Origin: Gayadomonas joobiniege G7
Lineage (GTDB): Bacteria; Pseudomonadota; Gammaproteobacteria; Enterobacterales; Alteromonadaceae
Assembly (NCBI RefSeq): GCF_000300815.1
Contig: NZ_AMRX01000006.1
Span: 1 to 64,000, forward strand
Direction: 5' to 3'
DNA length: 64,000 nucleotides
Part shown: positions 1 through 16,169 of the stretch, piece by piece
Layout: every line of letters begins with the position of its first letter
Numbering within the stretch: the stretch's first letter is position 1
The notes under the pieces: model-generated
Seen by the model: only the letters and a program-made list of their open reading frames with translations
Told to the model about the DNA's origin: nothing
Database searches by the model: none
Made by a program: the position numbers and the translations under genes

Positions 1-2909
1 TTGAAGGTACAGTATCAGAAGGAACTGAATTAACGATAAATGGTGTTTTAATCAGCCATAGCAGTGGAAATTTTACCGCATCAGTGGCTCTTAAAGAAGG
101 TTTGAATACTATTGAAGCTAGAGTGGAAAAAGGCACTCAGGTACAAACCGATAGTATCTCCATTTCACTCGATAAAACGCCGCCCTACATTACTATTGAT
201 TCGCATACAGATGGCGGAATCGTTTATCAAGACAAGGTAACCATTACTGGATTAATTAATGACATAGTTCGTGGAACCGTGGAAGCGAGCCAAGCCAATG
301 TTGAAGTTAACGGTCAGTCTGCCAACATACAAAACCGAAGTTATTCTGCCGCGAATATCCAATTGCTCGAAGGAGACAATGAAATTCAAGTTACCGCGTC
401 AGATCAGGTTGGTAATGTTGCAACTGAATCTATTAATTTAAAATATCAGCCCCCTCAAGGTAAGCAGTTGCTCGTGCAATCCGGTGACGGCCAAAAAGCA
501 GTTATTAATAGTGCATTAGCCGATCCATTGGTGGTTAAAGTATTAAATGATGAGAATCAGCCTGTTGAAAACGCATCTGTGGTGTTTAGGGTAACACAAG
601 GCTCTGGTGAAGTTGGTATTGGCACCCAGTCACAAGGTCGAGCAGTGGTCGTTGAAACATCTAAACAAGGCTTAGCGGAAACGAATTTTAGGTTGGGCGC
701 GCGATCGGGTGCGAGTAACCATAAAGTGTCTGCCGCTGTTGTGGGTTATCCCGGAAATGTCATATTTAGCGCTTCAGCAGAAACCCAAATTGGTAATAAA
801 TTAAGTGTTAACTCTGGCAATAATCAGCGAGGTTCGGTTGGTAACGCACTACCCGAAGCTTTTGTTGTTGTTGTGACTGATGGCGGGGCTAATGTTGTGC
901 AGGGTGCGAGAGTTAAGTTTGCGGTCACAGTAGGTGATGGTCAGTTCGTAGCCAATAATGAGCAAGTGTACGAAGTGGTAACAGACTCAGATGGTCGAGC
1001 ATCTGCCATTTACAAACTTGGGCAATTAACAGGTTTGGATGCACAGCGAGTAACAGCGACACTAATAGACGCTCCAGATGGACAAGTTATCTCGGCGGGT
1101 TTTAGCGCTAGCGCATTTGTGCCGGATGATGCGGGGAAAACAACAATTTCAGGTATTGTTTTAGATAATCAGGATAAACCCATTGAAGGTGTTACAATTC
1201 GGGTTGATGGGTCTAACAGAGAAGCGGTAACCAGCGCAACCGGTGTGTTTATTATTACCGAAGCCCCCATTGGACCTGTTCATTTAATAGCGGATGGTTC
1301 AACAGCGAAACAAGAAGGTGAATTCCCGTCGCTTAGCTACAATATAGTGACAGTGTCAGGGGTCGATAATCCGCTGTCTGCCCCCATTTACATGGTTAAG
1401 TTAAATACCGACAATGCAGTGTACGCAGGCCCTGACGATGCGGTGTTAGAACTAGCAAGCTATCCAGGTTTTAAATTAGAAATTGCCAAAGATTCTGTGA
1501 CCTTTCCGGATGGTAGTCGTGAAGGTTTTATCTCTGTAACGCCGGTCAATGCTGCCACTGTGCCTATGGCGCCACCCAATGGTATGCAACCCCAATTTAT
1601 AGTCACTATCCAGCCGACAGGCACTCAGTTTGACCCGCCTGCGAAGTTAACATTGCCAAATGTTGATGCTCATGAAGCGGGGGCCCAAGTTGAAATGTAT
1701 TCTTTTGATCATGATCTAGAGGAGTTTGTCGCTATCGGATTAGGAACAGTGAGTGAAGATGGCACTTTAGTATCTTCTAACCCTGGTGTTGGTGTGATAA
1801 AAGCCGGTTGGCACTGTGGGTCGCAACCCGGCGGTCAAAGCTGTGCTCATAATTGTCCAATTTGTAAAGACTGTGACGGTGATTGTAATTGTGTCGCTGC
1901 AGATGGTGACCCACGCGTCGCTAGTCTTGATCAGGCGGGCGACTGTAAAACACCTGAATGCCAAAATGGCAGCCCAGAGATGATCAATGACGATTCTGAC
2001 GTACCTGATGATGATAAGGTAGGCGATTGTAAATCGCCGGCTTGTGAAAACGGTGTTGTTACCCAAGTTACTGATAATTCAGATGAAACTAAATGTACCA
2101 CTTGTGGCGAAAATGGGCCTGAACCTAAGCCAGACGGTCATGTTCCTGAAGATGATAAATGTATTATTTGTCAGGGCGGAAAAGAAACTAAAAAACCGGA
2201 TAACGAGTTAGGCAGCGTAAGTGTAAGTTTTCCGCAAGTTAAACTCTTTATTCAAAAAGTGAATCAAGCTTTAGATTTATTTAATGCGGATACCAAAATT
2301 CCAGAAGTTACATTAGAGCTAAGTCGCGCGAAAAAAGAGGTTTGTTGTACCGCACAAAATGGTGCAATGACACTTGAACAAAAAGATCAAGGCGCTTTGA
2401 CGTTTCCGCGCTGGGGCGCTTCATGGACACCTACAGTGCCACCTTGGTCGGGGAATTATACCTTTTCAGTTTTTGGCCGTGAGATTGGTGTTAGATATGG
2501 CATTGAATTTACCGCTTCTTTTGCAGGTAGTGTCAGCGTTAATAGAACCAAGCGAGAATGCCAAGGTGATAATTGCTGGGGAGGGGATATAGGCGGCACT
2601 TTAGGTTTAGGTGGTGGGCCTATTGGTAGCGTACCAAATCCGGGTTCATCTCCGGTTGCCTGTGGTGATGAAGGTAAAAAACGTCCCTGTGATGCCATTA
2701 GAATCGAAGGCAAAATTAAAACCGGTGTAAACATTCAATCTGCGGTCAACTGTGAAAAGATCACGGGTGCTATCGGTCACAGTGGTGTTTCGGTCTCGGC
2801 GGATATTATTTTGGCCGAAGGCTCATGGGTCGAAACAGGTGCATCAGCGTCTTGGGTCATTGTTAACTCTGGACCCATTACCGATATAAATATTCCACTC
2901 GGCGACTGA
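1..2909 (+). CDS. Large exported Ig-like and cysteine-rich protein, 5' end outside window
   Basis: The frame is open from base 3 and the first codons already read as Ig-like sequence, so the GTG at 84 is not the start and the gene begins upstream. By nucleotide position: Ig-like beta-sandwich sequence (3-430); two repeats resembling Big_1/invasin domains (about 463-790 and 800-1120); a carboxypeptidase-regulatory-like fold (1140-1330); a beta-rich region with FDPPAKLTLPN-type motifs (1420-1810); a cysteine-rich stretch with repeated DCK(S/T)PxCxNG units separated by acidic runs (1810-2190); and a C-terminal beta-rich domain with further CC and C-x5-C pairs. No membrane anchor is visible at the C-terminus. 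It is the first visible gene of a close-packed exported-protein cluster. Secretion is inferred from domain type because the signal peptide is not in the window. The function is not known. Confidence 0.85.
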   Translation, partial: EGTVSEGTELTINGVLISHSSGNFTASVALKEGLNTIEARVEKGTQVQTDSISISLDKTPPYITIDSHTDGGIVYQDKVTITGLINDIVRGTVEASQANVEVNGQSANIQNRSYSAANIQLLEGDNEIQVTASDQVGNVATESINLKYQPPQGKQLLVQSGDGQKAVINSALADPLVVKVLNDENQPVENASVVFRVTQGSGEVGIGTQSQGRAVVVETSKQGLAETNFRLGARSGASNHKVSAAVVGYPGNVIFSASAETQIGNKLSVNSGNNQRGSVGNALPEAFVVVVTDGGANVVQGARVKFAVTVGDGQFVANNEQVYEVVTDSDGRASAIYKLGQLTGLDAQRVTATLIDAPDGQVISAGFSASAFVPDDAGKTTISGIVLDNQDKPIEGVTIRVDGSNREAVTSATGVFIITEAPIGPVHLIADGSTAKQEGEFPSLSYNIVTVSGVDNPLSAPIYMVKLNTDNAVYAGPDDAVLELASYPGFKLEIAKDSVTFPDGSREGFISVTPVNAATVPMAPPNGMQPQFIVTIQPTGTQFDPPAKLTLPNVDAHEAGAQVEMYSFDHDLEEFVAIGLGTVSEDGTLVSSNPGVGVIKAGWHCGSQPGGQSCAHNCPICKDCDGDCNCVAADGDPRVASLDQAGDCKTPECQNGSPEMINDDSDVPDDDKVGDCKSPACENGVVTQVTDNSDETKCTTCGENGPEPKPDGHVPEDDKCIICQGGKETKKPDNELGSVSVSFPQVKLFIQKVNQALDLFNADTKIPEVTLELSRAKKEVCCTAQNGAMTLEQKDQGALTFPRWGASWTPTVPPWSGNYTFSVFGREIGVRYGIEFTASFAGSVSVNRTKRECQGDNCWGGDIGGTLGLGGGPIGSVPNPGSSPVACGDEGKKRPCDAIRIEGKIKTGVNIQSAVNCEKITGAIGHSGVSVSADIILAEGSWVETGASASWVIVNSGPITDINIPLGD

Positions 2910-2919
2910 GGATGAACGA

Positions 2920-3522
2920 ATGAAGGTTAAAATTCTGCTTTATGCAAGTTTATTGTTTTGTCCGTGGGGGTATTCAGCCCAGCATTGGGTAATACCTATG
3001 TACCCAACCGGCGCAACAACGCAAGCCGCAATAACCATTGAGACCTTGTATAAGTATCAATTACAAAGTCCTAAAAAAGGCTTTGAAAAAGTACGCCTGA
3101 AACAAAAAAAATATACCTCGATGAAAACACCGGAGGAAGCATTTGTTGCTCGAATGTCAGCGGTCTCCTCATTGGATTATCAATGGTGGATAGAGACTTG
3201 GAGCGAATCGGCAAAAAATATATCGCTTCCCTATTTTCAAAATAAAGGTTTGGATGAAGCATATTGGATTAAAACTTGGAAAAATCAATTTGTCGGTCGT
3301 CAAATTCGCTTTGTACACAAAGTTACTTATAAAGATTATCAGATCATCATCTATAACGTTTCTTCGCCCAATGGTGATTTAGGCGTTTACTATTTACCCG
3401 TTGTTTTTAAACAAGCAGCGGATGGGAATTGGAAAGTTTCCCTTGATTTAAAACAAGTCCCATTACTTAGAATCAGTCCTTGGGTGAAAGGTTTGGAAAA
3501 AAAGGAAGAAGTTTATGAATAA
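2920..3522 (+). CDS. Exported protein of unknown function, paralogue of the next gene
   Basis: This is a 200-residue protein with a signal peptide (about residues 1-19, MKVKILLYASLLF core, cleavage near YSA-QH). I do not recognise the family. A DYQWWIETW motif lies near residue 87, and the C-terminal half is beta-rich. The same layout appears in the next gene (DYQWWLNNW, then a basic or aromatic segment, then DG-W-K/R near the end), so the two are tandem paralogues that have diverged strongly. The start lies 11 bases after the stop of the large upstream gene, and the end overlaps the next gene by 8 bases, indicating one transcript. A small periplasmic accessory protein of the neighbouring giant proteins is my inference only. 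Confidence 0.8.
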   Translation: MKVKILLYASLLFCPWGYSAQHWVIPMYPTGATTQAAITIETLYKYQLQSPKKGFEKVRLKQKKYTSMKTPEEAFVARMSAVSSLDYQWWIETWSESAKNISLPYFQNKGLDEAYWIKTWKNQFVGRQIRFVHKVTYKDYQIIIYNVSSPNGDLGVYYLPVVFKQAADGNWKVSLDLKQVPLLRISPWVKGLEKKEEVYE

Positions 3523-4051
3523 AATCATGTGTGTGGCTTTTCCATTTTGTCTGTTTTTGACTCATTCGGTATTTGCTCAGTCTGATATTTTTGCCGCACC
3601 CGAGATGCAAGATTTTGTTCATGTACAACACTTTAAATATAGTCGCCAACAATATGAAGACGTGGTTATCAGTGATTTTTATGAGCACGCCCGAGACGCT
3701 AATGAAGGACCTGATCGGCAGTTAGTTCAGTTTTTTTCTGCGCTCATTAAAGACGATTATCAATGGTGGTTGAATAATTGGAATGCTGAGACACAGCAAG
3801 ATTTTGCGCAAAAAGTTGCTTTAAAAAAAGGCCGCCGTAGTTATAACTATTGGCGAGCTACCGTCAACAAAAAAGCAGTGATAGAGCTAAAAGATTTTGT
3901 TCTGATGGGCCCCTTTGCGTTGATAGGTAGCCGCATAAACAGCGAATATCATTTGTTTCCGTTTGAGTTAGAAGACGGCCGCTGGCGATTGAACCAAGCC
4001 TACATGAGCAGTCAGGTGTATCAGCAGTTAAAAACAGAATTGCAGAGGTAG
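3515..4051 (+). CDS. Exported protein of unknown function, paralogue of the previous gene
   Basis: This 178-residue protein has a clear signal peptide (MNKIMCVAFPFCLFLTHSVFA, cleavage after residue 21). It shares with its upstream neighbour a central DDYQWWLNNW motif and a C-terminal ELEDGRWRLNQ stretch comparable to the neighbour's AADGNWKVSL. It starts inside the last codons of that gene, with an AAGGAAG ribosome-binding site just upstream. No catalytic signature or membrane segment is seen after the signal. Tandem paralogues with overlapping ends usually act together or on related partners. Here the likely partners are the large exported proteins on either side, but nothing in the sequence proves this. 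Confidence 0.8.
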   Translation: MNKIMCVAFPFCLFLTHSVFAQSDIFAAPEMQDFVHVQHFKYSRQQYEDVVISDFYEHARDANEGPDRQLVQFFSALIKDDYQWWLNNWNAETQQDFAQKVALKKGRRSYNYWRATVNKKAVIELKDFVLMGPFALIGSRINSEYHLFPFELEDGRWRLNQAYMSSQVYQQLKTELQR

Positions 4052-4055
4052 TTGA

Positions 4056-4514
4056 GTGGCGCTGAATGTAAAGCAATCAAGCCAAAATCGAATTGAAATA
4101 GTGTCATTTCCGATATGCTTTTTTTCAATGGTTGTTTTATTGCTGCTTTATTTTTGGAGTTATGCAGTATTTTTTGATAATCAGTTGAAGTTAGCCGATT
4201 ACCTGATTTTTAACTTCGTTTGTATTGTGGTGCTGTGTATCCCGCAATACCGACACACAATAATTGATAAAAAATCTGGATGCTGCGAATTATTTTATCA
4301 GCGTTTGGGCATGAAAAAGACCCAACGGATTGCTTTAAATCAGATAAAGGATGTTTTAGTGATTAAAGGGAAAGGTCAATATATGGGCAGTCATTGTCTT
4401 TACCTGATCACAGATACTAATAAGTATGCGGTTGCTGACTCAGATATTATTCCGGGCAGCAAGGGGCGGGTAAAAAGTATAAGGGATGAGTTAAGTAACT
4501 GGATAAGGTTATAA
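4056..4514 (+). CDS. Two-TM membrane protein with a beta-rich cytoplasmic tail
   Basis: This is a 152-residue protein starting at GTG, four bases after the previous stop. Two hydrophobic helices (about residues 16-38 and 47-62) are followed by about 90 residues of alternating strands (TIIDKKSGCCELFYQRL, RIALNQIKDVLVI, HCLYLITDTNKYAVADS). The layout of two short helices and then a small beta domain resembles membrane-bound PH-like proteins, which I offer as a fold suggestion only. It sits between the paralogue pair and the giant gene with no room for a separate promoter, so it is probably co-transcribed. The function is unknown. Confidence 0.7.
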   Translation: MALNVKQSSQNRIEIVSFPICFFSMVVLLLLYFWSYAVFFDNQLKLADYLIFNFVCIVVLCIPQYRHTIIDKKSGCCELFYQRLGMKKTQRIALNQIKDVLVIKGKGQYMGSHCLYLITDTNKYAVADSDIIPGSKGRVKSIRDELSNWIRL

Positions 4515-4536: not shown

Positions 4537-7500
4537 ATGAAAACGGTTAAACTTCTTCGGGCAGTTACAATTGCGGCTGTTATTTTTTCGAGCGTGTCAG
4601 CCAAGTCTGCTGAAGGCGATCTAAATGAAAACTGCGTGATTAACATTTTAAACCGTACTATCCAAGTGAGTGAAGATGGTGGTTGGTCTTTGCCCAATGT
4701 ACCATCGAATCAAGGCTCTGTGCGGGCCCGAGCAACCTGTATTGACGAGCAGGGGGCTTCCGTTTCAGGACAATCAGGTTATTTTAATTTATTGACAAAT
4801 GGCATTACGAGGGTCGGGTCTATCGAATTTACTGAACCAGAGCCTGTCCCCGTTTCTATTCGCTTTTTTTCTAATTCTCGTATTAATCTCAATATGGTTG
4901 GTCAATCCTATCAGTTGCAAGTGACTGCTGAATATCCGGGCGGTATTACTGATGATGTTACGGCGGCAAGTACTGGGATCAATTATATCAGTTCTAATTC
5001 GAGCGTAGCAGCGGTTAACTCTAATGGCTTAGTGACTTCTGTTGGCAGTGGTAACGCATTAATAACGGCCAGCAAAGATGGCCAAGTTGTTACTCGGCTA
5101 GTGGCAGTGAGTTTTACTGGTGATCAAGACGGGGATGGTTTGCCCGATGACTATGAAACCAACAATGGCTTAGACCCAAATGACCCAGCAGATGCTTTTG
5201 AGGATAAAGACAATGACGGTTTAAGTGCTTTGGATGAATACCTTGCCGGTACTGATATCGCAAAAGCGGATACCGATGGTGATGGTATCCAGGATGGTGA
5301 AGAACTCGCCGAAGGGGAAGATGGATATATTACTAATCCGTTAGTAACAGATTCTGATAATGATGGTTTGAACGATTTTCTTGAAGTCAGTTTAGGTTCT
5401 TCACCAACCGATTCGAGTTCGGCTGATTACGAGAACGCCATCACAAGTATAGAAGTACGCCCAAGCAATGTCATCATGACATTTAACGGTATTGATAGCG
5501 AAACCAGCACCCAGTTGAGCGTCACCGCTAATTTATTGGATGGTAGCCAGCTAGACGTGACCGCAAAAACAAATGGTACTATTTACCAATCCAGTGATCT
5601 ATCTGTGGTCAGTTTTGGTGCTGAAGACGGCAAGCTATTTGCTGGGGCCGATGGCCAAGCCACAGTGACGGTACAACTTTTTGAACAACAGAAACAAATA
5701 CCTATTATAGTTGAGAGTTTTCAACCGGATGGTGTGGCGAGTTTAAGCCTAAGCAGCTCAGTAAAAGATAACCAGGTATCAGGTGATTATGTTTATATTG
5801 CTGCAGGCAGCAGTGGCCTTATTGTGGTTGATATTAGTGATAAGCAGAATCCTAAAGAGGTGGCTAGTTTAGACCTAGAGGGTGACAGCAGTGATGTAAA
5901 AGTACTTGGCGATTATGTTTATCTGGCAACAGGTAGTTCGGGTGTTCAAGTGATCAATGTCAGCGAACCGACTCAGCCGGTTTTCGTCACGCAACTTGAT
6001 ACGAATGGCAATGCAGTAGACATGGCCATGCAAAACAACTATTTATATGTTGTTAGTGGCGAAGGCGGTTTAGAAATTTTAAATATTGAGCAACCTAACT
6101 TACCTTTTATAGTGTCCCGTTTGGATAACTTAGGCAATTTACTTTCGGTCGATGTCAGTGGCGACCGTGTGGCTGTTGCTGACCGTTCATCCCTGCTTAT
6201 GATTGACATACAGGATCCTGGTAGTCCGATGAGACTTGGCAGCGTGAACATAGGTAATATCCGAGCAGTTGCTTTGTCTGGGGATTATGCTTATGTCGCC
6301 TGTTACACCTGTGGATATAAAGTGATTGATGTTAGTAATCCAAATCGACCTCTAATATTAACAAATGATCAATCCTCTCGTTTTTATCCATCCGATCTTG
6401 CACTAACAAACGGGTTTGCATTTTTTAGCGATGTGCTTTTTGTAAATGCGGTGCCTTTTGTTAATATTTTTGATCCACGAAATACAGTTTTTCAAGGTGT
6501 TATAGATATTCGAGAGTTTGGTGATCGGGATGCAAGTTATGTCTCAGTAGACTCTGCGTATGTTTATTCAACAGGTTACAATCAGCTGTACATCTCACAG
6601 TATCGAGTGATTTCTGATACTCAGGGTATTGCACCAGACGTTGATATTTTGGGGCCGCTGGATGGTGAAGTTGTTGTTGAAAATAGTCGTGTTTTATTAA
6701 CAGCAAATGCCACCGATGATGTTGCTGTTGCTGGTGTGCGGCTAAAAATTAATGACACAGTGATTGCGACAGATACAACAATCCCCTATGAAATCCCTGT
6801 GACCATACCTAGCGGGATCAATCGGCTCAATTTAGTATTGGAAGCCTTTGATTTTGGTAACAATGTAAATGATGATGTTTCGGTTCTGATTGTTGAACCT
6901 GACGGTGATAGCGACGGTTTAGGTGATAACGAAGAGGTTTTTACTTGGTTTACCGACCCTGAAAATCCAGACACTGATGATGATGGTCTATTAGATGGGC
7001 TAGAAATTGAATTAAGCACTGATCCCAACGATACTGATTCAGACGATGACGGTCGTAGCGACGGCGACGAGGTCAACGCCGGTACTGACCCGTTAAATCC
7101 GGATATTACAGCGCCAAATGTCAGTCAGGTAACGCCGGCCCAAGACGCAGTTGATATTTGCGAAAACGTCAATCTATCGATAATTTTTAATGAAACCGTG
7201 CGTTTAAAATCAGTTAATAGTGACACGGTGCAACTAACAGAAGTGGCTGATAACGCCCAACCACTTAATGGATTTATCAATTTAGTGACAGGCAATACAG
7301 AAATTGTATTTAATCCGACTGATTTGTTAAAAGACAATACCCAATATCAAGTGACTGTTGGCGCGGTTAAAGATGACGCAGGGAACCCTGTAAGTCCTAA
7401 TTTTACCAGCACCTTTACAACTGGCGATTGTGTTGATGAAGAGCGGCCAACGGTAGTGCAATTAAGTCCTCTGCATAGTGCTACGGACATTCCAGTAAAC

Positions 7501-10500
7501 GCCAGTGTCAGTATAATTTTTAGTGAGCCTGTTGACCCTGTTACAGTTACATCCGATAGCGCGTACCTCTACGATAGCGTTAGCAATACTCGCGTTGCGA
7601 CCCAAATTAGTTTAACTAATAATAATACATCGTTAACTTTGACTCCGGATACCCCCATGTTGGTCGGACGTCGGCATTATATTTATCTAACGTCAACTAT
7701 TAAAGATAGTTTCGGTAACCCACTAAGTTATAGTCGGCGAGATTTTACCACCGCGTTTGATCGAGATGGGCAAGCACCTCAAATAGATGTGGTGAGCGTG
7801 CAAGACGGGGCGACCGATTTCCCGCTTAATGGTCAGTTAGCGGTTCGATTTGATGAAGCGTTAAACGCTGTGTATTTATCTAAACTTGAAATTATTGATA
7901 GTGATGGCGCGCCAGTTGAAACAACTAAATCTATCACTTCGGGCAATCGTCGGGTGATTTTAAAACCAGTAGAAAATCTAGCTGCAAATAGTCAATATCA
8001 GTTTGTTATCGATGGCGTTCAGGATTTAAGTGGAAATTTATTTGCCAATCCTATGACGTTCACATTCCACACAGGTTCAGAAACGGATACAGAAACGGGT
8101 GGTATACTTGATTGGAGCATTGAAAATAATGAGCGAGATGTTGCGTTAAATGCATTAATCGCTGTCCGTTTTGACGAAGCCATAGACGAGACAAGTATAG
8201 AATCCGATAGTTTTTATTTACAAGACCTAGAAACGAACAGAAAAGTTGCCGGAACCTTTTCGTTAACAGAACAGGGTCGTTTATTAACTTTTATACCAGA
8301 CACCAAACTAAGAGAAAGCAGACGATTTTATATTTATGTCGGACGTTCACCTTACTTGCAAGACTATGCCGGAAATTTTGTTGCGCAAAATAAAGGACGT
8401 TATTTTTATACCGGCATTGAGAGTGATGAGTCTGTGCCTGAGGTCGTATTATCCAGTTTTTCATCAAATGCAACTGGGTTACCCGTTAACAGCCAATTAC
8501 GCATCGATTTTAACGACCGTTTAAGTAAAGCGTGCCAACTTGAATCCAGTGTTAGTTTAATGCAAGGAGATACCTTGGTTGCGGCAAATTCATCATTTAC
8601 CAACGATGAATATAGTATTGTCGTGCAAGCATCTGAAAACTTGGCCAGTAATACCGAGTATCAAATAAGAGTGAGTGGTTTATGTGACCTATCAGGCAAC
8701 CAAATTGATGAGCATCTTTATGTATTTACCACAGGTACAGAAGTGGGTGCCGATACTGTAGCACCGAGCCTGACAGATATTTCGCCGGCAAATAATGTGA
8801 CCGATGTTTCTATCAATAGTGCCATCATAATGACCTTTGATGAAAACATAGCTCAACATGTAAAGCCTGAAATAAAAGGTGCAGGTGTAACCATATCAGG
8901 AAGCTACCAAGTTGATAACAACAAACTCACGTTTACCCCAGATTCGCCATTACCAGGCGACACTCGCTTTACTGTACTTTTGCAATCAAACATTGAAGAT
9001 ATGGCTGGCAATACGCGTTATCTGGGAAATCGATATTTTACTACAGAGGTTACGCAAGATAATGATGCGCCTCAGATTATAGCGGTCTCGCCAGCGAATG
9101 AATCGGTAGACATTCATCCACGGCAAGACGTTGTGGTAACCTTTAATGAACCTATCGACACATCTACTTTAACCGCACAAAATATTGCTTTATTTGTCAA
9201 TGGTAGTGAAATCAATAGCACGGTTAACCGCTCTGTAGATGGCCGCCAAGTTATTTTTTCGGCGTCGTTACCTGCTAATGCTGTTGTTTCTATTGTTGCA
9301 ACCTCAGCAATCAAAGATCTATCTGGCAATAAGCTGCAACCAGCCATTAGTAGCTTTACGACGGGGGTCGAGGATGACGATAATGAGCGGCCAAGTATTG
9401 TCAGTCAACAACCACAAAGTGGCACAGATAATTGGCGGGAAGTGAATGAAATCTATTTTTACACAAGTGAAGCAGTTGATGAAGCAAGCTTAGTAGATGC
9501 ATACCGTGTGGTTGAAAACGGTATTCAAGTGAACGCAGATTTAGAATTGATCGGTGATGGCCGTGTCATTAAATTAACCCCAGAGCAAGCGTTTACTGAC
9601 AATGCGCTAGTGCAGGTTTATTGGTTAACCACAGCAACCGATCTATCGGGGAATCCACTCACTAGTTACAACGGCCACTTTACGATGGCACCAGAGCCTG
9701 AGCAACTGGGCGTCCGCCCGTTTGTGGAAGCAGTTTATCCTGATAACGACAACGTCGCAACGCCCATCAATGTCAATATATTGGTTCGCTTTAGCGAAGC
9801 GATGAGCGCCGCATCATTTGGCAGTGAATCAGTTAAGTTATATGATGTGACTGGGGGCTGGACAATTGTTAATACAAGGCTGCAATTAGATGCATCCGGT
9901 CAAGTTTTATTGATTGAGCCCACTTCAAACCTATTACCAGAAAACCGGTATTACGTGGAGATCACTAATCGTCTTGAAGACACAGACGGCGATACTTTAC
10001 GATCTTCGGTCGGTGATTATTTTACCACCACAGCAACTAAAGTCGCGGATAGTATTGCGCCCGAAATTATACAGTTCAGCCCAGCGTTGAATGAAAAAAA
10101 TGTAGCTATTAATAGCTATTTTTCAGCTCAGTTTAATGAGGTCGTTAATCCCATTAGTTTGTCTGCTGATACTTATCGTGATGTCAGGTTCGCAGAGGGA
10201 AACACCCGAGTACGCTATCATAATCGGGTACCCTTGCAACCGCGCGAAGATGTGGTGGTTGACTATCCTCAGCTAACTGATTTAGCAGGTAATTTGGGGT
10301 TAGAAAAACAGACTCAATTTACTACTAGCAATAGTGTTGACACTCAAAAGCCGCAACTTATTGCGCAGTCCTATGCAAATAATACGAGTGATGTGCCAAT
10401 AAATACTCAATTTAACTGGTTATTCGACGAAGCCATAGATCCGGTTTCAATCACGAGCGGTGGCGTTTATTTATACGATAATTTGGATAAGGTAAACGTG

Positions 10501-13500
10501 GCGGCCACGTTAGAGATTAGCCCTGATGGCAAGCGCATTAGTTTGGTTCCAATTAACAGTTTATCTGCGGGTCGTCAGTATTATGCATATGCTCGTAATT
10601 TAGATGATTTGAGTGGTAACCGAGCATCAAACCTTAGCTCGTATTTTTACACTAGCTATGAAACGGACGTGCTGGCTCCTGTCGTTGTAAGGTCCACGAT
10701 TGCCAGTGGGGATAGCGAGATACCCCTGAACGTTAAAATTAATTTATTATTTAACGAAACGATAGCGGAATGGAAAGATGGTCAAGCCTCATTGAGCTTG
10801 GTTTCAACCGGACAAGAGATCCCCATTGTGATTGGAGAGGTTCGCGCTCAAAATTTAATTAGCATTAAACCACAGCAATTGCTTGAGCCAGATTCGGATT
10901 ATCGTTTAACTGTTAGTGGGGTTACGGATCTATCGGGTAATCAAATGGCCGATACGTACGTGCTTGACTTTACAGCTGCGACCGAAGTAGACCTTGGTGA
11001 AGGGACAATTCTACGATGGAGCCTCCCGCATAATAGTCGAGATGTTGCGCTAACTCCGAGTCTTAAAGTATATTTTAGCGAAGCAGTTGATGCTGCGCTG
11101 ATTAATGAATCCACTGTGCGTTTGCACGACAGCACTACCAATTTGAACGTCAATATTCAGCGAACTTTAAATGACGACCGCACAGTGCTGACGCTTACGG
11201 CTGATGAGCCACTTAAACCTGAACGTAGATATTATATCTATATAGGATACAGCCCTTATTTAACTGATTTAGCTGGAAATCGCTTACCCACCGCCTCGCG
11301 TAGTTTCTACACCGGAACTGAGACGGATACAAGCGGGCCTGCTATCATAGGTGTGAGTAGCCAGTCATCAGCGTCTGAACTCCCGACGAACGCGCGAGTT
11401 GATATTGCTTTCAATGAACGTATTAGTGACAGTTGTGATTGGTGGGACAATGTCAAACTAGTGTCCGGAACACTAGCGATGGATACCTTGGTTGAATTGT
11501 CTGACGACCGAACTCGCTTATTTGTTACGTCTGTTGACGGCTTATCCGCAGGCACTGAATATAGCATTCAAAGCGATAGTTTGTGCGATTATTCTGGTAA
11601 TACTATTAGTGGTCAACTGGCCGTGTTTAAAACCGCCGATGATGCGGTTGAAGATACTCAAGGGCCGGCGATATTAAATTTAAGTCCGGCCGACAGGGAG
11701 TTGGACGTAAATCCGGATATCGCACAATTAACTTGGACATTTAACGAAAATATATCAGCTTTGAGTCACCCCAAAGTCACAGCCAATGGTCTAACCGTAC
11801 CGGGTGCTTATGAAGTGGTTGCGAATGAAATTATATTCAAGCCCGCCATATCATTGCAGGGTAATACTCAGTACAGGGTTGAGTTTTTAAATAACATCTT
11901 AGATTTAGCTGGTAATAATAGGTCCTTAGGATATAAGTACTTTACTACCGCTGCTCAAGCAGATAGTGAAAGGCCTCAGGTGAGTGCTATTACGCCAAGT
12001 GATCAAAGTGCAGACGTCAGTCCGTTGATTGATATTCAGGTTCGCTTTAGTGAACCTATGGCGATAGATACGTTAAAAACAGAGCATATTTCATTATATG
12101 CCAACGGTAATGTGATCACACCGTCAATCAGCTACTCAGCAGATGGTAGAGTCATGACATTGCAGGCAAACTTGCCCGATAATACGATAGTTAGTGCAGT
12201 GATCTCTGATGGTGTGACTGACTTATCAGGCAACCCGGTAACACCTTTTATCAGCAGCTTTACAACTGGATTTGCGTTAACTCGTGATGCAAGCCGACCT
12301 AAGATAAATCAGCAACTGCCTAAGAATAACAGCTCTGGTTGGATTGACCTCTCTGAGATTGTGCTTTACGCCAGTGAGCCGTTAGATATAGAGAGTCTAA
12401 AAGAAGGTTTGGTACTGGTCCAAAATGGGCAGGTGATCGAAGCTGATATTAGTCTAATGGGCGATGGCCGAACCATTCGAGTCACAAATAAAGACGGGGG
12501 GTTTGCCGCAAACAGCCGCATTCAATTACATTTAGATCATGTTGTAAAAGACTTAAATGGCAACCCATTAACAACGTACGATAGTAGTGTATTTACCACC
12601 GCAGAAACAGATGGTTTTGGTGTACGTCCCCGTGTTCAGGCCTATTATCCAACAGCAAGTACGTTAGGGGTACCCAAAAATGCCGTGATCACAGCGCGAT
12701 TTGATGAAGCCTTAGATTCGGCTACTTTAGGGTCTGAATCCGTTTACATTCGTAATGTTACTGACGGTTGGGTAACAGTGCCATCAACTGCGAGTTTGGA
12801 CGATTCTGGCCGAATTATTAAAGTGGAGCCTGATGCGTTATTTGAAGCAGGCAAACAGTACTATATTGATTATCGCGCCAGCATTAAAGACACTGACGGT
12901 GATAACTTGTATACAAATTATGGTCATTACTTCAATGTCTCAGATGATGCTACAGAAGATACTAGGCAGCCTAAAGTAAGTTATTTCAGCCCCTTCTCTG
13001 GTAGTAAAGGGGTTGGGATCAACACTTTATTCTCTGTACAATTTGATGAACCAGTAAACCCGCTAAGTTTTGCGTTAGGTACCGACATTGATATCGAATT
13101 TAGCGATTCTGAAAAAGTGCTGTTTTACCGTAAGCCCCAGCCTCTAAGCTCTTCTCAAACACATACTGAAACCCTGTCAGGGTTAACAGATATTGCTGGG
13201 AACATTTTGATAAATGCCTCAACAACGTTTGAAACTGATAGTGGTCCAGATTATATCAATCCGGAGTTGCAAGACTATAGTATTTCGAATAATAGCCTCA
13301 ATGTATCGCTTAAACCCGTGATGGAGTGGGAGTTGAGTGAAGCAATTGATGTGACTAGAGTCAATAGTAACAATGTATACCTATACAATAATGAAACTAG
13401 ACTAAATGTTCCTACTACGCTAGAGGTCTCTGCTGACGGCAAGTTTATTAAAATGACGCCACTGGAAGTCCTGCAAGAAAATGTACGACATTACGCGTAT

Positions 13501-14874
13501 TTATATAGGATGAGAGACCTGTCTGGAAATAGTCTGTCGAACAAATCGAGCTATTTCACGACCGGCAGTGAGCAAGATACCACGCCTCCTGAAGTTATCG
13601 GGGCGAGTGTGGTTGATGAGCAAGTGGATGTGCCTGTTAATGCGGTCTTTCAAATTCGTTTCAATGAACCTTTGAGTGCACTGAAAGCGGACTGGGTTAG
13701 CCTACAATCGGCGACCGGAGATGCCATTCCGTATACGCTGGCGCTGTCACGAGGCCGCACATTAATGACTATTCGTACAGATACTCTATTAGCAGCCAAT
13801 AGCGAATATAGCTTAAAGGTAATGTCTGCAGTTGATATATCTGGCAATGTACAAATACAAACATACCAAGCTAATTTTGAAACCTCAAATCAAGCTGATT
13901 TTAAACCAGGGTCAGTAGAACTTTGGCCAATGCCGAATAATGCAAACAATGTATCAGCTAACCCGTTATTGCAGGTCCGATTTAACGAAAAAATCAGCGC
14001 TGCTAGCATAGATGGCGACACAGTCTATTTGTATAACAATGCAACGCGATTACGTGTCACTGCCAGTTTGGCTTTAAGCAGCGACCAGAAAACATTAACA
14101 GTGATACCCAACGAAGCATTACAAGCAAATACTCGTTATTATCTTTATATTGGTTATACGCCTTATCTACATGACTTAGCAGGCAACCGGGTGGCTCAAT
14201 CATCCTCTCGTTATTTTACCACAGGCGACTTTGATACGGCCGATGTCACTAAGCCAACAGTCACGCATGCGAGTATGACCAATGGTCAAACAGATCTACC
14301 TGTGAATAGCGAATGGGTGTTCAAGATATCTGAAGGTTTAAGTAACACCTGTCCGATAGCAGAGTCTGTATTACTGACCAGTGATGGTGTATCAATTGAT
14401 AAGTCAGTGAGCATTAACAGTGCTCGTGACCTGTTAACAATTAAGGCAAATCAGGACCTAATGATAAATACCACCTATCAGATAACACTTACCGGGCTTT
14501 GCGATTATGCTGGCATTCAAATGGATGACTATACTCTAGAAGCCAGGGTCGGTGCAGACAGCGCAAAAGATAATTCTGGGCCTAGGTTGATAGCGAGCTC
14601 GCCGCAAAACCAAACAACGGATGTTGCTTTGGATACAGTGATTGAACTCAGTTATGACGAAGTGGTCAGCCAACTGTCAAATCCCGAGCTTTATCAAGGC
14701 ACCAATAAAGTGCCTGTGAACTATACTTATGATGCAGGTAAAATTTCGCTAAGCCCGCTTGAGGCATTGGCGCCTGTAACCAGTTATCGTGTAGATCTGG
14801 GTTACAAAGCAAAAGACTTGTCTGGAAACCAGCGTAGTAACTCAGACATTAATTTCACCACAGTTGCAGAGTAA
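4537..14874 (+). CDS. Giant secreted repeat protein: LVIVD propeller, Ca-binding blocks, 24 Big_5 Ig-like domains
   Basis: This 3445-residue protein has a signal peptide (cleavage near residues 22-25, VSA-KSA). In order: a Big_2-like domain (about 105-190); a thrombospondin-3/EF-like calcium block rich in DxDxDG (195-295); a second Big_2-like domain (300-395); a beta-propeller of LVIVD repeats (400-695; units such as DYVYIAAGSSGLIVVDIS); an Ig-like domain; a second DxDxDG block (788-856); and 24 Ig-like domains of Big_5/SbsA type (859-3445), each about 97-114 residues and ending in DLSGN...FTT. Domain types recur every nine units. No RTX, LPXTG, PEP-CTERM, autotransporter barrel or TM anchor is visible at the C-terminus, so the export and anchoring route is open. 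All 12 cysteines can be paired. It is probably an extracellular structural or adhesive protein. Its precise role is unknown. Confidence 0.9.
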   Translation: MKTVKLLRAVTIAAVIFSSVSAKSAEGDLNENCVINILNRTIQVSEDGGWSLPNVPSNQGSVRARATCIDEQGASVSGQSGYFNLLTNGITRVGSIEFTEPEPVPVSIRFFSNSRINLNMVGQSYQLQVTAEYPGGITDDVTAASTGINYISSNSSVAAVNSNGLVTSVGSGNALITASKDGQVVTRLVAVSFTGDQDGDGLPDDYETNNGLDPNDPADAFEDKDNDGLSALDEYLAGTDIAKADTDGDGIQDGEELAEGEDGYITNPLVTDSDNDGLNDFLEVSLGSSPTDSSSADYENAITSIEVRPSNVIMTFNGIDSETSTQLSVTANLLDGSQLDVTAKTNGTIYQSSDLSVVSFGAEDGKLFAGADGQATVTVQLFEQQKQIPIIVESFQPDGVASLSLSSSVKDNQVSGDYVYIAAGSSGLIVVDISDKQNPKEVASLDLEGDSSDVKVLGDYVYLATGSSGVQVINVSEPTQPVFVTQLDTNGNAVDMAMQNNYLYVVSGEGGLEILNIEQPNLPFIVSRLDNLGNLLSVDVSGDRVAVADRSSLLMIDIQDPGSPMRLGSVNIGNIRAVALSGDYAYVACYTCGYKVIDVSNPNRPLILTNDQSSRFYPSDLALTNGFAFFSDVLFVNAVPFVNIFDPRNTVFQGVIDIREFGDRDASYVSVDSAYVYSTGYNQLYISQYRVISDTQGIAPDVDILGPLDGEVVVENSRVLLTANATDDVAVAGVRLKINDTVIATDTTIPYEIPVTIPSGINRLNLVLEAFDFGNNVNDDVSVLIVEPDGDSDGLGDNEEVFTWFTDPENPDTDDDGLLDGLEIELSTDPNDTDSDDDGRSDGDEVNAGTDPLNPDITAPNVSQVTPAQDAVDICENVNLSIIFNETVRLKSVNSDTVQLTEVADNAQPLNGFINLVTGNTEIVFNPTDLLKDNTQYQVTVGAVKDDAGNPVSPNFTSTFTTGDCVDEERPTVVQLSPLHSATDIPVNASVSIIFSEPVDPVTVTSDSAYLYDSVSNTRVATQISLTNNNTSLTLTPDTPMLVGRRHYIYLTSTIKDSFGNPLSYSRRDFTTAFDRDGQAPQIDVVSVQDGATDFPLNGQLAVRFDEALNAVYLSKLEIIDSDGAPVETTKSITSGNRRVILKPVENLAANSQYQFVIDGVQDLSGNLFANPMTFTFHTGSETDTETGGILDWSIENNERDVALNALIAVRFDEAIDETSIESDSFYLQDLETNRKVAGTFSLTEQGRLLTFIPDTKLRESRRFYIYVGRSPYLQDYAGNFVAQNKGRYFYTGIESDESVPEVVLSSFSSNATGLPVNSQLRIDFNDRLSKACQLESSVSLMQGDTLVAANSSFTNDEYSIVVQASENLASNTEYQIRVSGLCDLSGNQIDEHLYVFTTGTEVGADTVAPSLTDISPANNVTDVSINSAIIMTFDENIAQHVKPEIKGAGVTISGSYQVDNNKLTFTPDSPLPGDTRFTVLLQSNIEDMAGNTRYLGNRYFTTEVTQDNDAPQIIAVSPANESVDIHPRQDVVVTFNEPIDTSTLTAQNIALFVNGSEINSTVNRSVDGRQVIFSASLPANAVVSIVATSAIKDLSGNKLQPAISSFTTGVEDDDNERPSIVSQQPQSGTDNWREVNEIYFYTSEAVDEASLVDAYRVVENGIQVNADLELIGDGRVIKLTPEQAFTDNALVQVYWLTTATDLSGNPLTSYNGHFTMAPEPEQLGVRPFVEAVYPDNDNVATPINVNILVRFSEAMSAASFGSESVKLYDVTGGWTIVNTRLQLDASGQVLLIEPTSNLLPENRYYVEITNRLEDTDGDTLRSSVGDYFTTTATKVADSIAPEIIQFSPALNEKNVAINSYFSAQFNEVVNPISLSADTYRDVRFAEGNTRVRYHNRVPLQPREDVVVDYPQLTDLAGNLGLEKQTQFTTSNSVDTQKPQLIAQSYANNTSDVPINTQFNWLFDEAIDPVSITSGGVYLYDNLDKVNVAATLEISPDGKRISLVPINSLSAGRQYYAYARNLDDLSGNRASNLSSYFYTSYETDVLAPVVVRSTIASGDSEIPLNVKINLLFNETIAEWKDGQASLSLVSTGQEIPIVIGEVRAQNLISIKPQQLLEPDSDYRLTVSGVTDLSGNQMADTYVLDFTAATEVDLGEGTILRWSLPHNSRDVALTPSLKVYFSEAVDAALINESTVRLHDSTTNLNVNIQRTLNDDRTVLTLTADEPLKPERRYYIYIGYSPYLTDLAGNRLPTASRSFYTGTETDTSGPAIIGVSSQSSASELPTNARVDIAFNERISDSCDWWDNVKLVSGTLAMDTLVELSDDRTRLFVTSVDGLSAGTEYSIQSDSLCDYSGNTISGQLAVFKTADDAVEDTQGPAILNLSPADRELDVNPDIAQLTWTFNENISALSHPKVTANGLTVPGAYEVVANEIIFKPAISLQGNTQYRVEFLNNILDLAGNNRSLGYKYFTTAAQADSERPQVSAITPSDQSADVSPLIDIQVRFSEPMAIDTLKTEHISLYANGNVITPSISYSADGRVMTLQANLPDNTIVSAVISDGVTDLSGNPVTPFISSFTTGFALTRDASRPKINQQLPKNNSSGWIDLSEIVLYASEPLDIESLKEGLVLVQNGQVIEADISLMGDGRTIRVTNKDGGFAANSRIQLHLDHVVKDLNGNPLTTYDSSVFTTAETDGFGVRPRVQAYYPTASTLGVPKNAVITARFDEALDSATLGSESVYIRNVTDGWVTVPSTASLDDSGRIIKVEPDALFEAGKQYYIDYRASIKDTDGDNLYTNYGHYFNVSDDATEDTRQPKVSYFSPFSGSKGVGINTLFSVQFDEPVNPLSFALGTDIDIEFSDSEKVLFYRKPQPLSSSQTHTETLSGLTDIAGNILINASTTFETDSGPDYINPELQDYSISNNSLNVSLKPVMEWELSEAIDVTRVNSNNVYLYNNETRLNVPTTLEVSADGKFIKMTPLEVLQENVRHYAYLYRMRDLSGNSLSNKSSYFTTGSEQDTTPPEVIGASVVDEQVDVPVNAVFQIRFNEPLSALKADWVSLQSATGDAIPYTLALSRGRTLMTIRTDTLLAANSEYSLKVMSAVDISGNVQIQTYQANFETSNQADFKPGSVELWPMPNNANNVSANPLLQVRFNEKISAASIDGDTVYLYNNATRLRVTASLALSSDQKTLTVIPNEALQANTRYYLYIGYTPYLHDLAGNRVAQSSSRYFTTGDFDTADVTKPTVTHASMTNGQTDLPVNSEWVFKISEGLSNTCPIAESVLLTSDGVSIDKSVSINSARDLLTIKANQDLMINTTYQITLTGLCDYAGIQMDDYTLEARVGADSAKDNSGPRLIASSPQNQTTDVALDTVIELSYDEVVSQLSNPELYQGTNKVPVNYTYDAGKISLSPLEALAPVTSYRVDLGYKAKDLSGNQRSNSDINFTTVAE
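7441..8103 (+). repeat. Partial super-repeat: two Big_5 domains matching positions 8 and 9 of the cycle
   Basis: Domains 2 and 3 of the array start at 7441 and 7771. Domain 2 (AYLYDSVSNTRV, then RRHYIYL) resembles domains 11 and 20. Domain 3 (FPLNGQLAVRFDEAL, ending in an ETDTETGG linker) resembles domains 12 and 21. They therefore form the tail of a truncated first cycle. Domain 1 (7111-7440) does not fit the register and looks like a cap. Confidence 0.6.
8104..11004 (+). repeat. Super-repeat copy 1: nine Big_5 domains
   Basis: Nine Ig-like domains start at 8104, 8434, 8761, 9067, 9388, 9715, 10057, 10348 and 10675. Each resembles the domain about 2.9 kb downstream more than its immediate neighbours. 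Position 1 carries YIYVGRSPYLQDYAGN, position 2 a cysteine pair with GLCDLSGN, position 5 an RPSIVSQQPQ opening, and position 6 GVRPFVEAVYP and GGW. Copies have diverged at the DNA level, so the duplication is old. Confidence 0.75.
11005..13911 (+). repeat. Super-repeat copy 2: nine Big_5 domains
   Basis: Domains start at 11005, 11335, 11662, 11971, 12295, 12625, 12967, 13258 and 13585. Offsets from the matching domain of copy 1 are 2901-2910 bases throughout. Matching features are YIYIGYSPYLTDLAGN at position 1, the cysteine pair with SLCDYSGN at position 2, RPKINQQLPK at position 5, GVRPRVQAYYP with DGW at position 6, and VNPLS at position 7. Confidence 0.75.
13912..14871 (+). repeat. Super-repeat copy 3, partial: three Big_5 domains
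   Basis: Domains start at 13912, 14251 and 14578 and correspond to positions 1-3 of the cycle: YLYIGYTPYLHDLAGN at position 1, a cysteine pair with GLCDYAG at position 2, and the Cys-free GPRLIASSPQ type at position 3. The protein stops after position 3. Confidence 0.7.
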
Positions 14875-14883
14875 GGTAATGAT

Positions 14884-15324
14884 ATGAGTATAAAGTCTTT
14901 AAAATGGTTAGTGACCTTTGCATTGTTTGTTTTGCTTGTTTATGCCGCGATCTGGTTTAAACAAACAGATCCCGAAGCGACGATTATAAAAAAGCCAGTG
15001 TATAGCTTAGAGCAGCAGGGTAGTTCAGTGCAGATAAAACAAACTGAACGTACAAATTCAAGTTTGTTAAAAACGGACACCGAGCTGACAGAAGTTGATG
15101 CAGCAGGGTTATCACTAGAGTCAGACGCGGCTGCCGTTGATAACGTACAGCAATTAAAAGCTCAACAAGCAAAGATAAAAAAAATGATGCAAGTTTTAGA
15201 TCAAAAAATCCATGCAGGTGAGGAGGTTGCCGAAATCGAACAAAGCCTACAAGCAAGTTTGGCCGAGTACAATAAACTTGCATTACCACTGGCATTAAAA
15301 CAAATGCAGGAAAGACAAAACTGA
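14884..15324 (+). CDS. Single-TM protein with coiled coil
   Basis: This is a 146-residue protein with one N-terminal membrane helix (about residues 9-25, VTFALFVLLVYAAIWF), then a polar stretch and a predicted coiled coil (about residues 88-143, with QQLKAQQAKIKKMMQVLDQK in the middle). It would sit in the inner membrane with the coiled coil in the periplasm. It starts 9 bases after the giant gene, and its stop codon shares a base with the next start (ATGA). This is a strong sign of translational coupling with the thioredoxin-fold protein. I do not recognise the family. A scaffold or export helper for the giant protein is possible but is inference only. Confidence 0.75.
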   Translation: MSIKSLKWLVTFALFVLLVYAAIWFKQTDPEATIIKKPVYSLEQQGSSVQIKQTERTNSSLLKTDTELTEVDAAGLSLESDAAAVDNVQQLKAQQAKIKKMMQVLDQKIHAGEEVAEIEQSLQASLAEYNKLALPLALKQMQERQN

Positions 15325-16169
15325 TGACACTTTATAAAAACTTTTTATCGCTTTTGTTTGGCGTTACTTTTTATTTAGTGTTTAGCTTATCCTCATTGGC
15401 GGTTACTGCTTTGCCGATTCCATCAGAGCAAACAGAAGAAGCCTTTTTACTCAATGGCTGGCGGGCTGATCGTCCGAATTTATTGGTGTTTAAAGATCCG
15501 CATTGCCCCTATTGTGTAAAAGCGGCAAAACAGCTGGAGCAATTAGCTGGTTACAATATTTTTGTATTCTGGTCACCCATTTTAGGAGAAAAAAGTAAAC
15601 AAAGTGTCGCTCAGTATTTTAGATGTGAAAGGCCTGTCTCAAACAGAATTTTAAGAGCTATGGTTACACGCCAGCAGCCAGCATGTGACAGTGCGATTAA
15701 ACAAGATTTATTGGCTATCAATAACCACTTCGTTGAGCAATATCAAATAAACTCAGTTCCTTCATTTTATCTTCAAGGGCAAGGTGTCAGTTTAAGCCAG
15801 TTATTAAAATATCAGCATAGCAAAACCCCCGTTATGGGGATTCAACCGGACTGGAGCAAATTTAACGCATTAAAATATTTACCCGGATGGCAAGCTAAAA
15901 ACCAGATGCTAATCGTTAGTGATGCTGATAGTGGCGCATTACCCGCTTGGTTGGCTCAATATCAGCCGGAGTTTGTTATAGTGAATAGCAGCCAACTCGC
16001 AAAGACAGAAGGTTTTTTTAATTGTAATTCAGCTCATTGCAAAAAAAATAAAATAGCAGAATATGAGCAGCAAAAAGCGCTATTTTATTTGCTATTTGAT
16101 GGTCTTTTAACGCAAAATCTGTCTGTAGTTATTAACAGTCAGGGTAAAATTAATGAGCTTAGACCCTAG
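15324..16169 (+). CDS. Periplasmic thioredoxin-fold protein with CPYC motif (DsbC/DsbG-like)
   Basis: This 281-residue protein has a signal peptide or anchor (about residues 8-28). A thioredoxin-like fold follows, with FKDPHCPYCVKAAKQLEQL near residue 56 and a cis-proline loop INSVPSFYL near residue 145. This matches the catalytic pattern of DsbC/DsbG-type disulfide isomerases, although the DsbC dimerisation domain is not evident. The C-terminal 90 residues form a second alpha/beta region with a C-x4-C pair (CNSAHC). Its start overlaps the coiled-coil gene by one base, placing it in the giant-protein cluster. That fits a role in forming or reshuffling the disulfides of the cysteine-containing exported proteins upstream. 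The thiol-redox function is likely; the specific substrate is inferred. Confidence 0.8.
   Translation: MTLYKNFLSLLFGVTFYLVFSLSSLAVTALPIPSEQTEEAFLLNGWRADRPNLLVFKDPHCPYCVKAAKQLEQLAGYNIFVFWSPILGEKSKQSVAQYFRCERPVSNRILRAMVTRQQPACDSAIKQDLLAINNHFVEQYQINSVPSFYLQGQGVSLSQLLKYQHSKTPVMGIQPDWSKFNALKYLPGWQAKNQMLIVSDADSGALPAWLAQYQPEFVIVNSSQLAKTEGFFNCNSAHCKKNKIAEYEQQKALFYLLFDGLLTQNLSVVINSQGKINELRP

Follow-up and report, generated by a model that had tools for sequence, protein, structure and literature searches.

A nine-domain super-repeat with mostly constant domain number in a giant Ig-like protein of Gayadomonas joobiniege G7 and its relatives

Why should the domains of a giant bacterial protein follow one another in a fixed order, nine at a time? 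The question is raised by a gene at 4537..14874 (+ strand) of the window, meaning the whole stretch of DNA analyzed here, 64,000 nucleotides long (Gayadomonas joobiniege G7, contig NZ_AMRX01000006.1, positions 1-64,000). Its open reading frame, translation and Pfam matches give a protein of 3445 amino acids (aa) with a Sec-type signal (recognized by eye), an N-terminal region and 24 immunoglobulin (Ig)-like domains of the Big_5 family. Bacterial tandem-Ig stalks are often pictured as arrays of like domains whose number drifts; here the order and mostly the number persist over large divergence despite recombination between blocks, which makes bacterial domain number as a ruler a testable question.

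The protein matches Big_5 (PF13205) with 899.1 bits against a gathering score of 23.6 (E = 3.5e-277) in 24 stretches, and an iterated custom profile recovers the same 24 domains plus one weak match near residue 330, in agreement with the number given by the original prediction. The array reads 1+9+9+5, all on the + strand: a cap, d1 (7111..7443), outside the nine-fold cycle and with its own cysteine pair; block A, d2-d10 (types t0-t8, 968 aa, 7444..10347); block B, d11-d19 (t0-t8 again, 970 aa, 10348..13257); and block C, d20-d24 (t0-t4 only, 538 aa, 13258..14871), with which both array and protein end. Alternatively, it can be read as three five-domain modules with two four-domain spacers between them. 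The start proposed earlier for the repeat, 7441, lies three bases ahead of d2 (7444).

To measure the period, every pair of domains was aligned globally and the mean score was taken per lag, with 100,000 shuffled domain orders as the null. Lag nine has a mean score of 165.8 (34% identity) versus 69.3 +/- 9.6 for the shuffled orders, whose maximum was 118.2; the other 22 lags have mean scores of 44.8 to 125.8, with lag 18 as runner-up. Neighbors are no more similar than random pairs (lag one, 59.0, 26% identity), so that a simple tandem array is ruled out and the claim that domain n resembles domain n+9 more than n+1 holds far above the shuffled level. The best partner lies 9 or 18 domains away for 21 of the 24 domains, the exceptions being d1-d3, and the residue-level autocorrelation peaks at 968 to 970 residues. 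The domain-start offsets reported before were right within a few bases, but comparable pairs number 15, not eleven: 2946 (d1-d10), 2904, 2901, 2904, 2901, 2901, 2904, 2907, 2910, 2910, 2910, 2910, 2907, 2916 and 2916 bases. The motif YIYxGxSPYL recurs three times as described, in the t2 domains d4 (8095..8433), d13 (10999-11334) and d22 (13906-14250), at residues 1265, 2233 and 3202 (the third copy being YLYIGYTPYL), as does LCDxxG at 1382, 2349 and 3321. The array shows the features of a titin-type super-repeat: its different domain types keep one order, and they are alike at the block lag with no excess at lag one.

The domain tree tells the same story. Among 46 domains, d2-d24 from each of two proteins (the window's and a congener's), n groups with n+9 and neighbors do not cluster: eight of nine position classes each form a single group, with modest support for t1 (87/72), and t0 is the sole split class, d2 of both proteins falling outside. 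Deeper in the tree t1 pairs with t3, and t0 (d11, d20) with t2; identities in eight proteins agree on an older pairing for t0-t2 and are less even for t1-t3, and by these comparisons the first four types may derive from an older two-domain duplication.

Is such a period common in giant proteins? As controls we took, among the matches listed for the same bacterial family, the seven longest frames that do not belong to the present protein family and scanned them by residue autocorrelation (stretches of about 20 kb each, covering the longest three, of 7107, 6093 and 5236 aa, in part). The best lag was one domain in six of the seven and two domains in the other. The same scan of four members of the present family gave a nine-domain peak with no comparable one-domain peak, and among the eleven proteins scanned only the present family has a long lag without a one-domain lag. 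Unlike neighbors could reflect a folding safeguard, in which adjacent domains must differ to avoid joint misfolding and the super-repeat is a by-product of lengthening the array without like neighbors. The lag-one identity of 26% in the window protein, against 27 to 63% at lag nine across 20 proteins, fits this idea. Such a safeguard would fix neither nine, nor the end types, nor 24, however, and in some other giants from this bacterial family neighbors do resemble each other (residue identity up to 0.435 at the one-domain lag in the scanned part), which makes it quite unlikely as the explanation.

How far does the order extend beyond this genome? Within the genus of G. joobiniege, six of seven other genomes encode a full-length orthologue of 3444 to 3473 aa, 47 to 52% identical and in the same gene neighborhood. 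Counting the window genome each time, relatives occur in 15 of 295 genomes at the level of the bacterial family (1e-30), in 5 of 394 at that of the order (1e-60), two of these from two other families, in 2 of 369 at that of the class and, with the block profile, in 2 of 398 at that of the phylum. A scan of named genomes with the array alone yielded no relatives; with the N-terminal alignment, and with 80 of 148 loci kept, it yielded three apparent true relatives, L081 (the L048 protein again), L083 and L082, and added Pseudomaricurvus alcaniphilus (Cellvibrionaceae) to the hosts (L numbers are loci and G numbers genomes). L082 has no Big_5 domain in its three forward frames. The remaining 77 loci were classed as TSP3-type by matched residues and E-values, not checked singly. 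Before domains were counted, partial matches were removed at 332 in the window protein, 2122 in L047 and 1804 in L048; without this manual drop L081 breaks into 25 pieces and its best lag becomes 10, which is an artifact of an insertion in d9.

Lag nine is the best lag in all 24 family proteins (20 of 20, then 3 of 3, then L083), with a score in the 14-domain L051 not above the largest shuffled value. Exactly 24 domains are found in 18 of the 24 proteins and in 8 of 12 lineages (paralogue groups counted apart), including relatives at 28 to 40% identity, some of which have an N-terminal region that is shorter by about 240 aa or longer by about 270 aa. Position models built by leaving out one lineage at a time, with one representative per lineage and a chance expectation of 1 in 9, placed 234 of 253 domains in the expected type: 23 of 23 in six lineages and, for the two remotest lineages, 13 of 23 and 15 of 21. 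The order is exact or near-exact in 10 of 12 lineages and still detectable in the remaining two. The comparison with orthologues proposed as a check thus finds the nine-unit order kept across genera and families; together, the placement, the lag and the number indicate that the nine-domain block is ancestral and that its register was kept. The ratio of nonsynonymous to synonymous substitution rates (dN/dS) is 0.04 to 0.12 in four of six pairs that allowed an estimate. Two further members stand apart. Within the window's genus, L026, L027 and L028 represent a paralogue that has 22 domains and an N-terminal region of much greater length. A distant member with 22 domains and lag nine (L075:4878-13916) is preceded by an RHS-repeat gene that includes a pretoxin HINT domain (L075:27-3641).

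The copies of the block have nevertheless not simply drifted apart. The original prediction held that an ancestral nine-domain block was duplicated and then stayed in register; ancestral and in register it is, but a single old duplication followed by free divergence is ruled out by the block trees, two of which are weak at deep forks. The nine-domain block tree joins blocks A and B as sisters at 100/100 in Pseudomaricurvus, L047, L048 and the g14 paralogue and at 100/99 in the main g14 protein, and it separates them as old groups in the window's genus with G309, in G138 and in the genus paralogue; six label changes are forced, and long branches, including the window's, call for caution. The end branches of the window array are near 1.0 in this tree, versus 0.04 to 0.28 for congeners. 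Among 17 proteins with 24 domains, identity at lag nine within a protein ranges from 35% (the window protein, lowest) to 66% (L047), and same-position identity between genera is 29 to 55%. In L074 a 666-base tract recurs at a distance of 2904 bases, d4/d13 being 99.7% and d5/d14 98.2% identical, with flanking domains at 59 to 62%. In L047, d9-d10 and d18-d19 are 91 to 92% identical with an exact run of 76, and in Pseudomaricurvus an insertion in d9 (130 aa) is repeated in d18 (130 aa). Sister blocks, the recurring insertion, the recurring lineage-specific cysteines described below and the L074 tract indicate that recombination between blocks recurs.

By which route did the copies exchange? The short sharp tracts of L074 and L047 are compatible with gene conversion, and the sister relationship of B and C in t0-t4 for L046/49, L047 and L083, with A and B together in t5-t8, is compatible with unequal exchange. 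Whole-block re-duplication, with each lineage starting from an ancestor of 15 domains, was weighed against gene conversion, and a mix of both may have operated. The exchange did not reach all positions: in each of 12 proteins compared, the t0-t1 domains of block A have 24 to 42% identity with the copies that follow, versus t2-t8 identities that reach 63 to 96% in L047, and divergence is also frequent in t3-t4 of the last block. The array ends thus stay apart where the interior has been homogenized, and the domain count rarely changes even though recombination is active. The family offers a natural case of in-register exchange within one gene and an independent comparison for titin.

Repeats are prone to misassembly, and the 15 domains of L074 accompany two near-identical tracts, so that assembly collapse could underlie its low count. 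That the super-repeat itself is an artifact of assembly or prediction is extremely improbable, since the window copies are only 56 to 64% identical in DNA at lag nine (diverged copies, as had been noted), the frame stays open over 3445 codons, and separate assemblies give the same number for 18 of 24 proteins.

What, then, holds number and register? We tentatively favor a fixed-length exported rod of 24 Ig-like domains that presents docking sites every nine domains, titin-like by analogy. Because such a rod would need a fixed length and the same docking surface at three places, selection would hold the domain number near 24 and keep the nine-domain spacing. At about 4 nm per domain, as for titin, the array would be about 96 nm long with a period of about 36 nm. 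The docking surface would most likely be the t2-t3 pair, with its YIY motif and cysteine pair, offered at three places about 36 nm apart. Block copies would recombine in register, making interior types alike in several lineages and leaving the first two domains of block A distinct. The period and the register are properties of the sequences, as are the mostly constant number, the in-register recombination, the distinct first domains and the phased cysteines; a ruler function is something we infer from them, and the same applies to disulfide formation, length, spacing, partner and export route.

The same facts could also arise from a largely neutral history, in which an ancestral block was duplicated and exchange then occurred only where the DNA was similar, that is, nine domains away, leaving nine without functional meaning beyond a long stalk; register and number would then last because unlike neighbors do not exchange. 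Near-identical tracts do sit at lag nine, neighbors at 26% identity are presumably too different to recombine, domain number can be inherited, and one unrelated giant also has a ten-domain lag. What such a history explains less readily is that the nine types remain recognizable at 28 to 40% overall identity, that the cysteines and some length marks stay phased, that t0-t1 of block A are distinct despite homogenized interiors, and that unequal exchange, expected from the same DNA similarity, seldom altered the number. We regard it as a real possibility, if a somewhat doubtful one.

Within d2-d24 of the window protein cysteines occur only in the t3 domains d5 (8434..8760), d14 (11335..11661) and d23 (14251..14577), two in each at the same offsets, +33 and +83; three of 23 domains share a phase by chance with a probability of 0.003. 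The same three domains alone carry cysteines in d2-d24 of L020-L023, L025, L050 and L071, and L024 adds a pair in d22. In L046-L049 there are others besides d5, d14 and d23, and these extras are phased in L046 and L049 (d6, d15, d24); L074 has cysteines in d5 and d14 and in d6 and d15. L026-L028 deviate in d14, and L075 has a single cysteine (d19). Downstream of the giant gene, at 15324..16169 (+), lies a thioredoxin-fold protein with an FKDPHCPYC motif (Pfam Thioredoxin_2 above cut-off). The DsbG model gives it 16.7 of 124 bits, far under cut-off, and from its sequence it is possibly a DsbC/DsbG-like thiol oxidoreductase, which would probably handle the phased disulfides of the proposed rod. 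A motif search within 4 kb downstream found a CPYC or CGYC thioredoxin-type protein in 18 of 23 relatives as well as the window, and none beside L026, L027, L028, L050 and L075; in L052-L055 it is a different, lipoprotein-like protein.

Structure prediction and comparison with known systems place the array among chains of Ig-like domains. The AlphaFold2 (AF2) model of block A has beta strands throughout, with a predicted local distance difference test (pLDDT) value of 84.2 and a predicted template modeling score (pTM) of 0.46; it supports a chain of Ig-like domains, nothing finer, and inter-domain geometry was discarded at this pTM, as was a poor model of the N-terminal region (pLDDT 54.4). 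Foldseek matched the block model to Chlamydomonas FMG1B, a titin fragment (second among the PDB matches), S-layer and other Ig chains, with whole-chain template modeling (TM) scores near 0.1, and to phage Ig proteins. The S-layer proteins SbsB, SbsC, Sap and EA1 are Ig-like chains of this kind (TM-scores of 0.10 to 0.18), and the window protein has no SLH match. The block profile had no sequence match among PDB chains at E <= 0.001, titin included, and the relation to titin, lacking sequence homology, is one of analogy. Titin A-band super-repeats comprise 7 domains in the D-zone and 11 in the C-zone. According to PMC7427331, MyBP-C stripes lie 11 domains apart, the thick filament becomes shorter when the first two super-repeats of the C-zone are deleted, and each domain spans about 4 nm. 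The likeness lies in a fixed order of different domains forming a higher-order unit; unlike titin, with its eukaryotic Ig and fibronectin (Fn) domains, 11 or 7 per unit, and many more units, the present array consists of Big_5 domains throughout, nine per unit and about 2.6 units.

Bacterial arrays of comparable size behave differently in the portions of the literature available. Homologues of the 51-domain adhesin of Mobiluncus differ by large insertions (PMC10619420), and MpAFP of Marinomonas has about 120 identical copies (PMC4083281); both share the very long tandem Ig-like array, and no nine-type order or constant number was met in those parts of their descriptions. The BAP of Acinetobacter, a giant of 80-110 aa Ig-like modules, is, in the text available, highly polymorphic (PMC4647330), whereas here the order and mostly the number are kept. 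Among the matches listed from the open PMC literature, a scope outside which most subscription papers fall, there was no bacterial family with a conserved nine-domain order and a near-constant number. Tandem-Ig stalks and the higher-order repeats of titin are already known; what this family adds to them is such an order, with near-constant number, in bacteria.

Would a plain stalk suffice? The N-terminal region (residues 1-858, 4537..7110, +), as defined by Pfam and an alignment of 15 relatives, comprises the signal, LVIVD repeats, one Big_7 domain and TSP3 repeats slightly under the Pfam cut-off. An ordinary fibrillar adhesin stalk, showing this LVIVD and TSP3 head at the surface and with a length that matters only roughly, would account for the signal-like start, the Ig array and the TSP3 repeats, as well as for partial matches, far under cut-off, to the myxobacterial gliding protein CglD and the cohesion protein MtsD. 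Pfam finds no recognized anchor at either end, no domain after the last Big_5 and no RTX, autotransporter or SLH domain; with no RTX family at E <= 0.01, a Big_5 C terminus and an N terminus that looks Sec-signal-like by eye, the protein does not resemble RTX or type 1 secreted adhesins. Moreover, in the bacterial stalks called Periscope proteins, the number of tandem domains sets the projection length and gene length varies, as far as the available text of PMC8201768 goes, unlike the present family, which keeps 24 in 8 of 12 lineages. We judge the simple stalk less likely than not.

Several observations weigh against the fixed-length rod with periodic docking sites. Four lineages deviate in number, with 15 (L074), 14 (L051), 22 (L026 and L028, with L027 split into frames of 3476 and 423 aa, the first holding 18 domains) and 22 domains (L075), and the 24 of all eight other lineages may be inherited from one ancestor, so that constancy alone does not prove selection. 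The last two domains of L083 were not assigned to t3-t4, and its third block lacks the cysteine pair. The g14 paralogues lack the t3 cysteines; L052-L055, without the t3 cysteines, have cysteines in d4, d13 and d22 and in d10 and d19, plus d24 out of phase; lineage-specific extra cysteines are single and unphased in L047 (d12) and L048 (d9); and L050 has the t3 cysteines yet no CPYC/CGYC oxidoreductase within 4 kb downstream. L050 and L026 have no homogenized interior. The control L161 has a ten-domain lag (908 residues) near its one-domain lag (91 residues), at 0.276 versus 0.285, so block duplication is not unique to the present family, and bacterial Ig arrays may contain super-repeats more often than has been recognized. 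The pTM of the block A model leaves curvature or twist unreadable, and we infer, rather than observe, partner binding, localization and a filament, including any filament period or spacing ruler.

If the array is a rod with docking sites, its partner may come from the same gene cluster, either the lipoprotein-like protein encoded upstream or an FG-GAP/HEAT protein beside a five-heme cytochrome. The upstream gene is represented in the window by its 3' part (3..2909, +), with Glucodextran_B and CarboxypepD_reg above and Big_1 below the Pfam cut-off and 70 to 73% identity in six congeners; the window begins at the contig end inside it. The 5' part of this gene, which encodes a lipoprotein-like signal, probably corresponds to L175:8316-9464 on contig 6 of the same genome (G000:C6). 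Judged by eye, the protein starts like a lipoprotein in G005, G001, G309 and the window genome, and in none of the other genera seen. A five-heme cytochrome with a membrane part and the FG-GAP/HEAT protein are encoded divergently upstream in the window's genus. In the window genome both are at L175:2861-8090 (G000 contig 6), on a contig of 9466 bases that breaks off within a gene resembling the beginning of the upstream gene; this contig is probably adjacent to the window contig.

The five-CXXCH cytochrome is present in stretches around six loci. Among 295 genomes of the bacterial family, the giant protein occurs in 15, the cytochrome in 15 and both in 13 (Fisher 7e-19, ignoring relatedness), and by genus they co-occur in 4 of 6 (Fisher 8e-4). 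In G067 and G100 the sole giant found is a paralogue, encoded far from the cytochrome; cytochrome matches without a giant, in G042 and G234, are weak; and G006, of the window's genus, has neither. The cytochrome was not established as an obligate partner, relatedness weakening the co-occurrence and the cytochrome being distant from the giant in G067 and G100. A more specific form of the rod hypothesis is a titin-type ruler, in which the 24 domains would set the length of, or space parts along, an envelope-spanning or extracellular assembly tied to the cytochrome and the FG-GAP/HEAT protein, with number and register under selection and gene conversion keeping the docking modules alike; this we consider improbable, though worth naming.

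The other genes of the cluster are small. Between the upstream gene and the giant gene lie a 200-aa protein (2920..3522, +) and a 178-aa protein (3515..4051, +), both with a signal-like start and no Pfam or NCBIfam match, and a 152-aa probable membrane protein (4056..4514, +; membrane stretches by eye), all three in 6 of 6 congeners. Directly after the giant gene comes a 146-aa protein with one N-terminal membrane-like stretch, seen by eye (14884..15324, +), matched in 5 of 6 congeners. The cytochrome match of one congener (G004:C9:155020-157041) contains one in-frame TGA. At three other loci (L077:620-1246, L078:6375-7058 and L080:6016-6543), the cluster is directly preceded by the gene of a small protein whose PEP-CTERM match is below cut-off.

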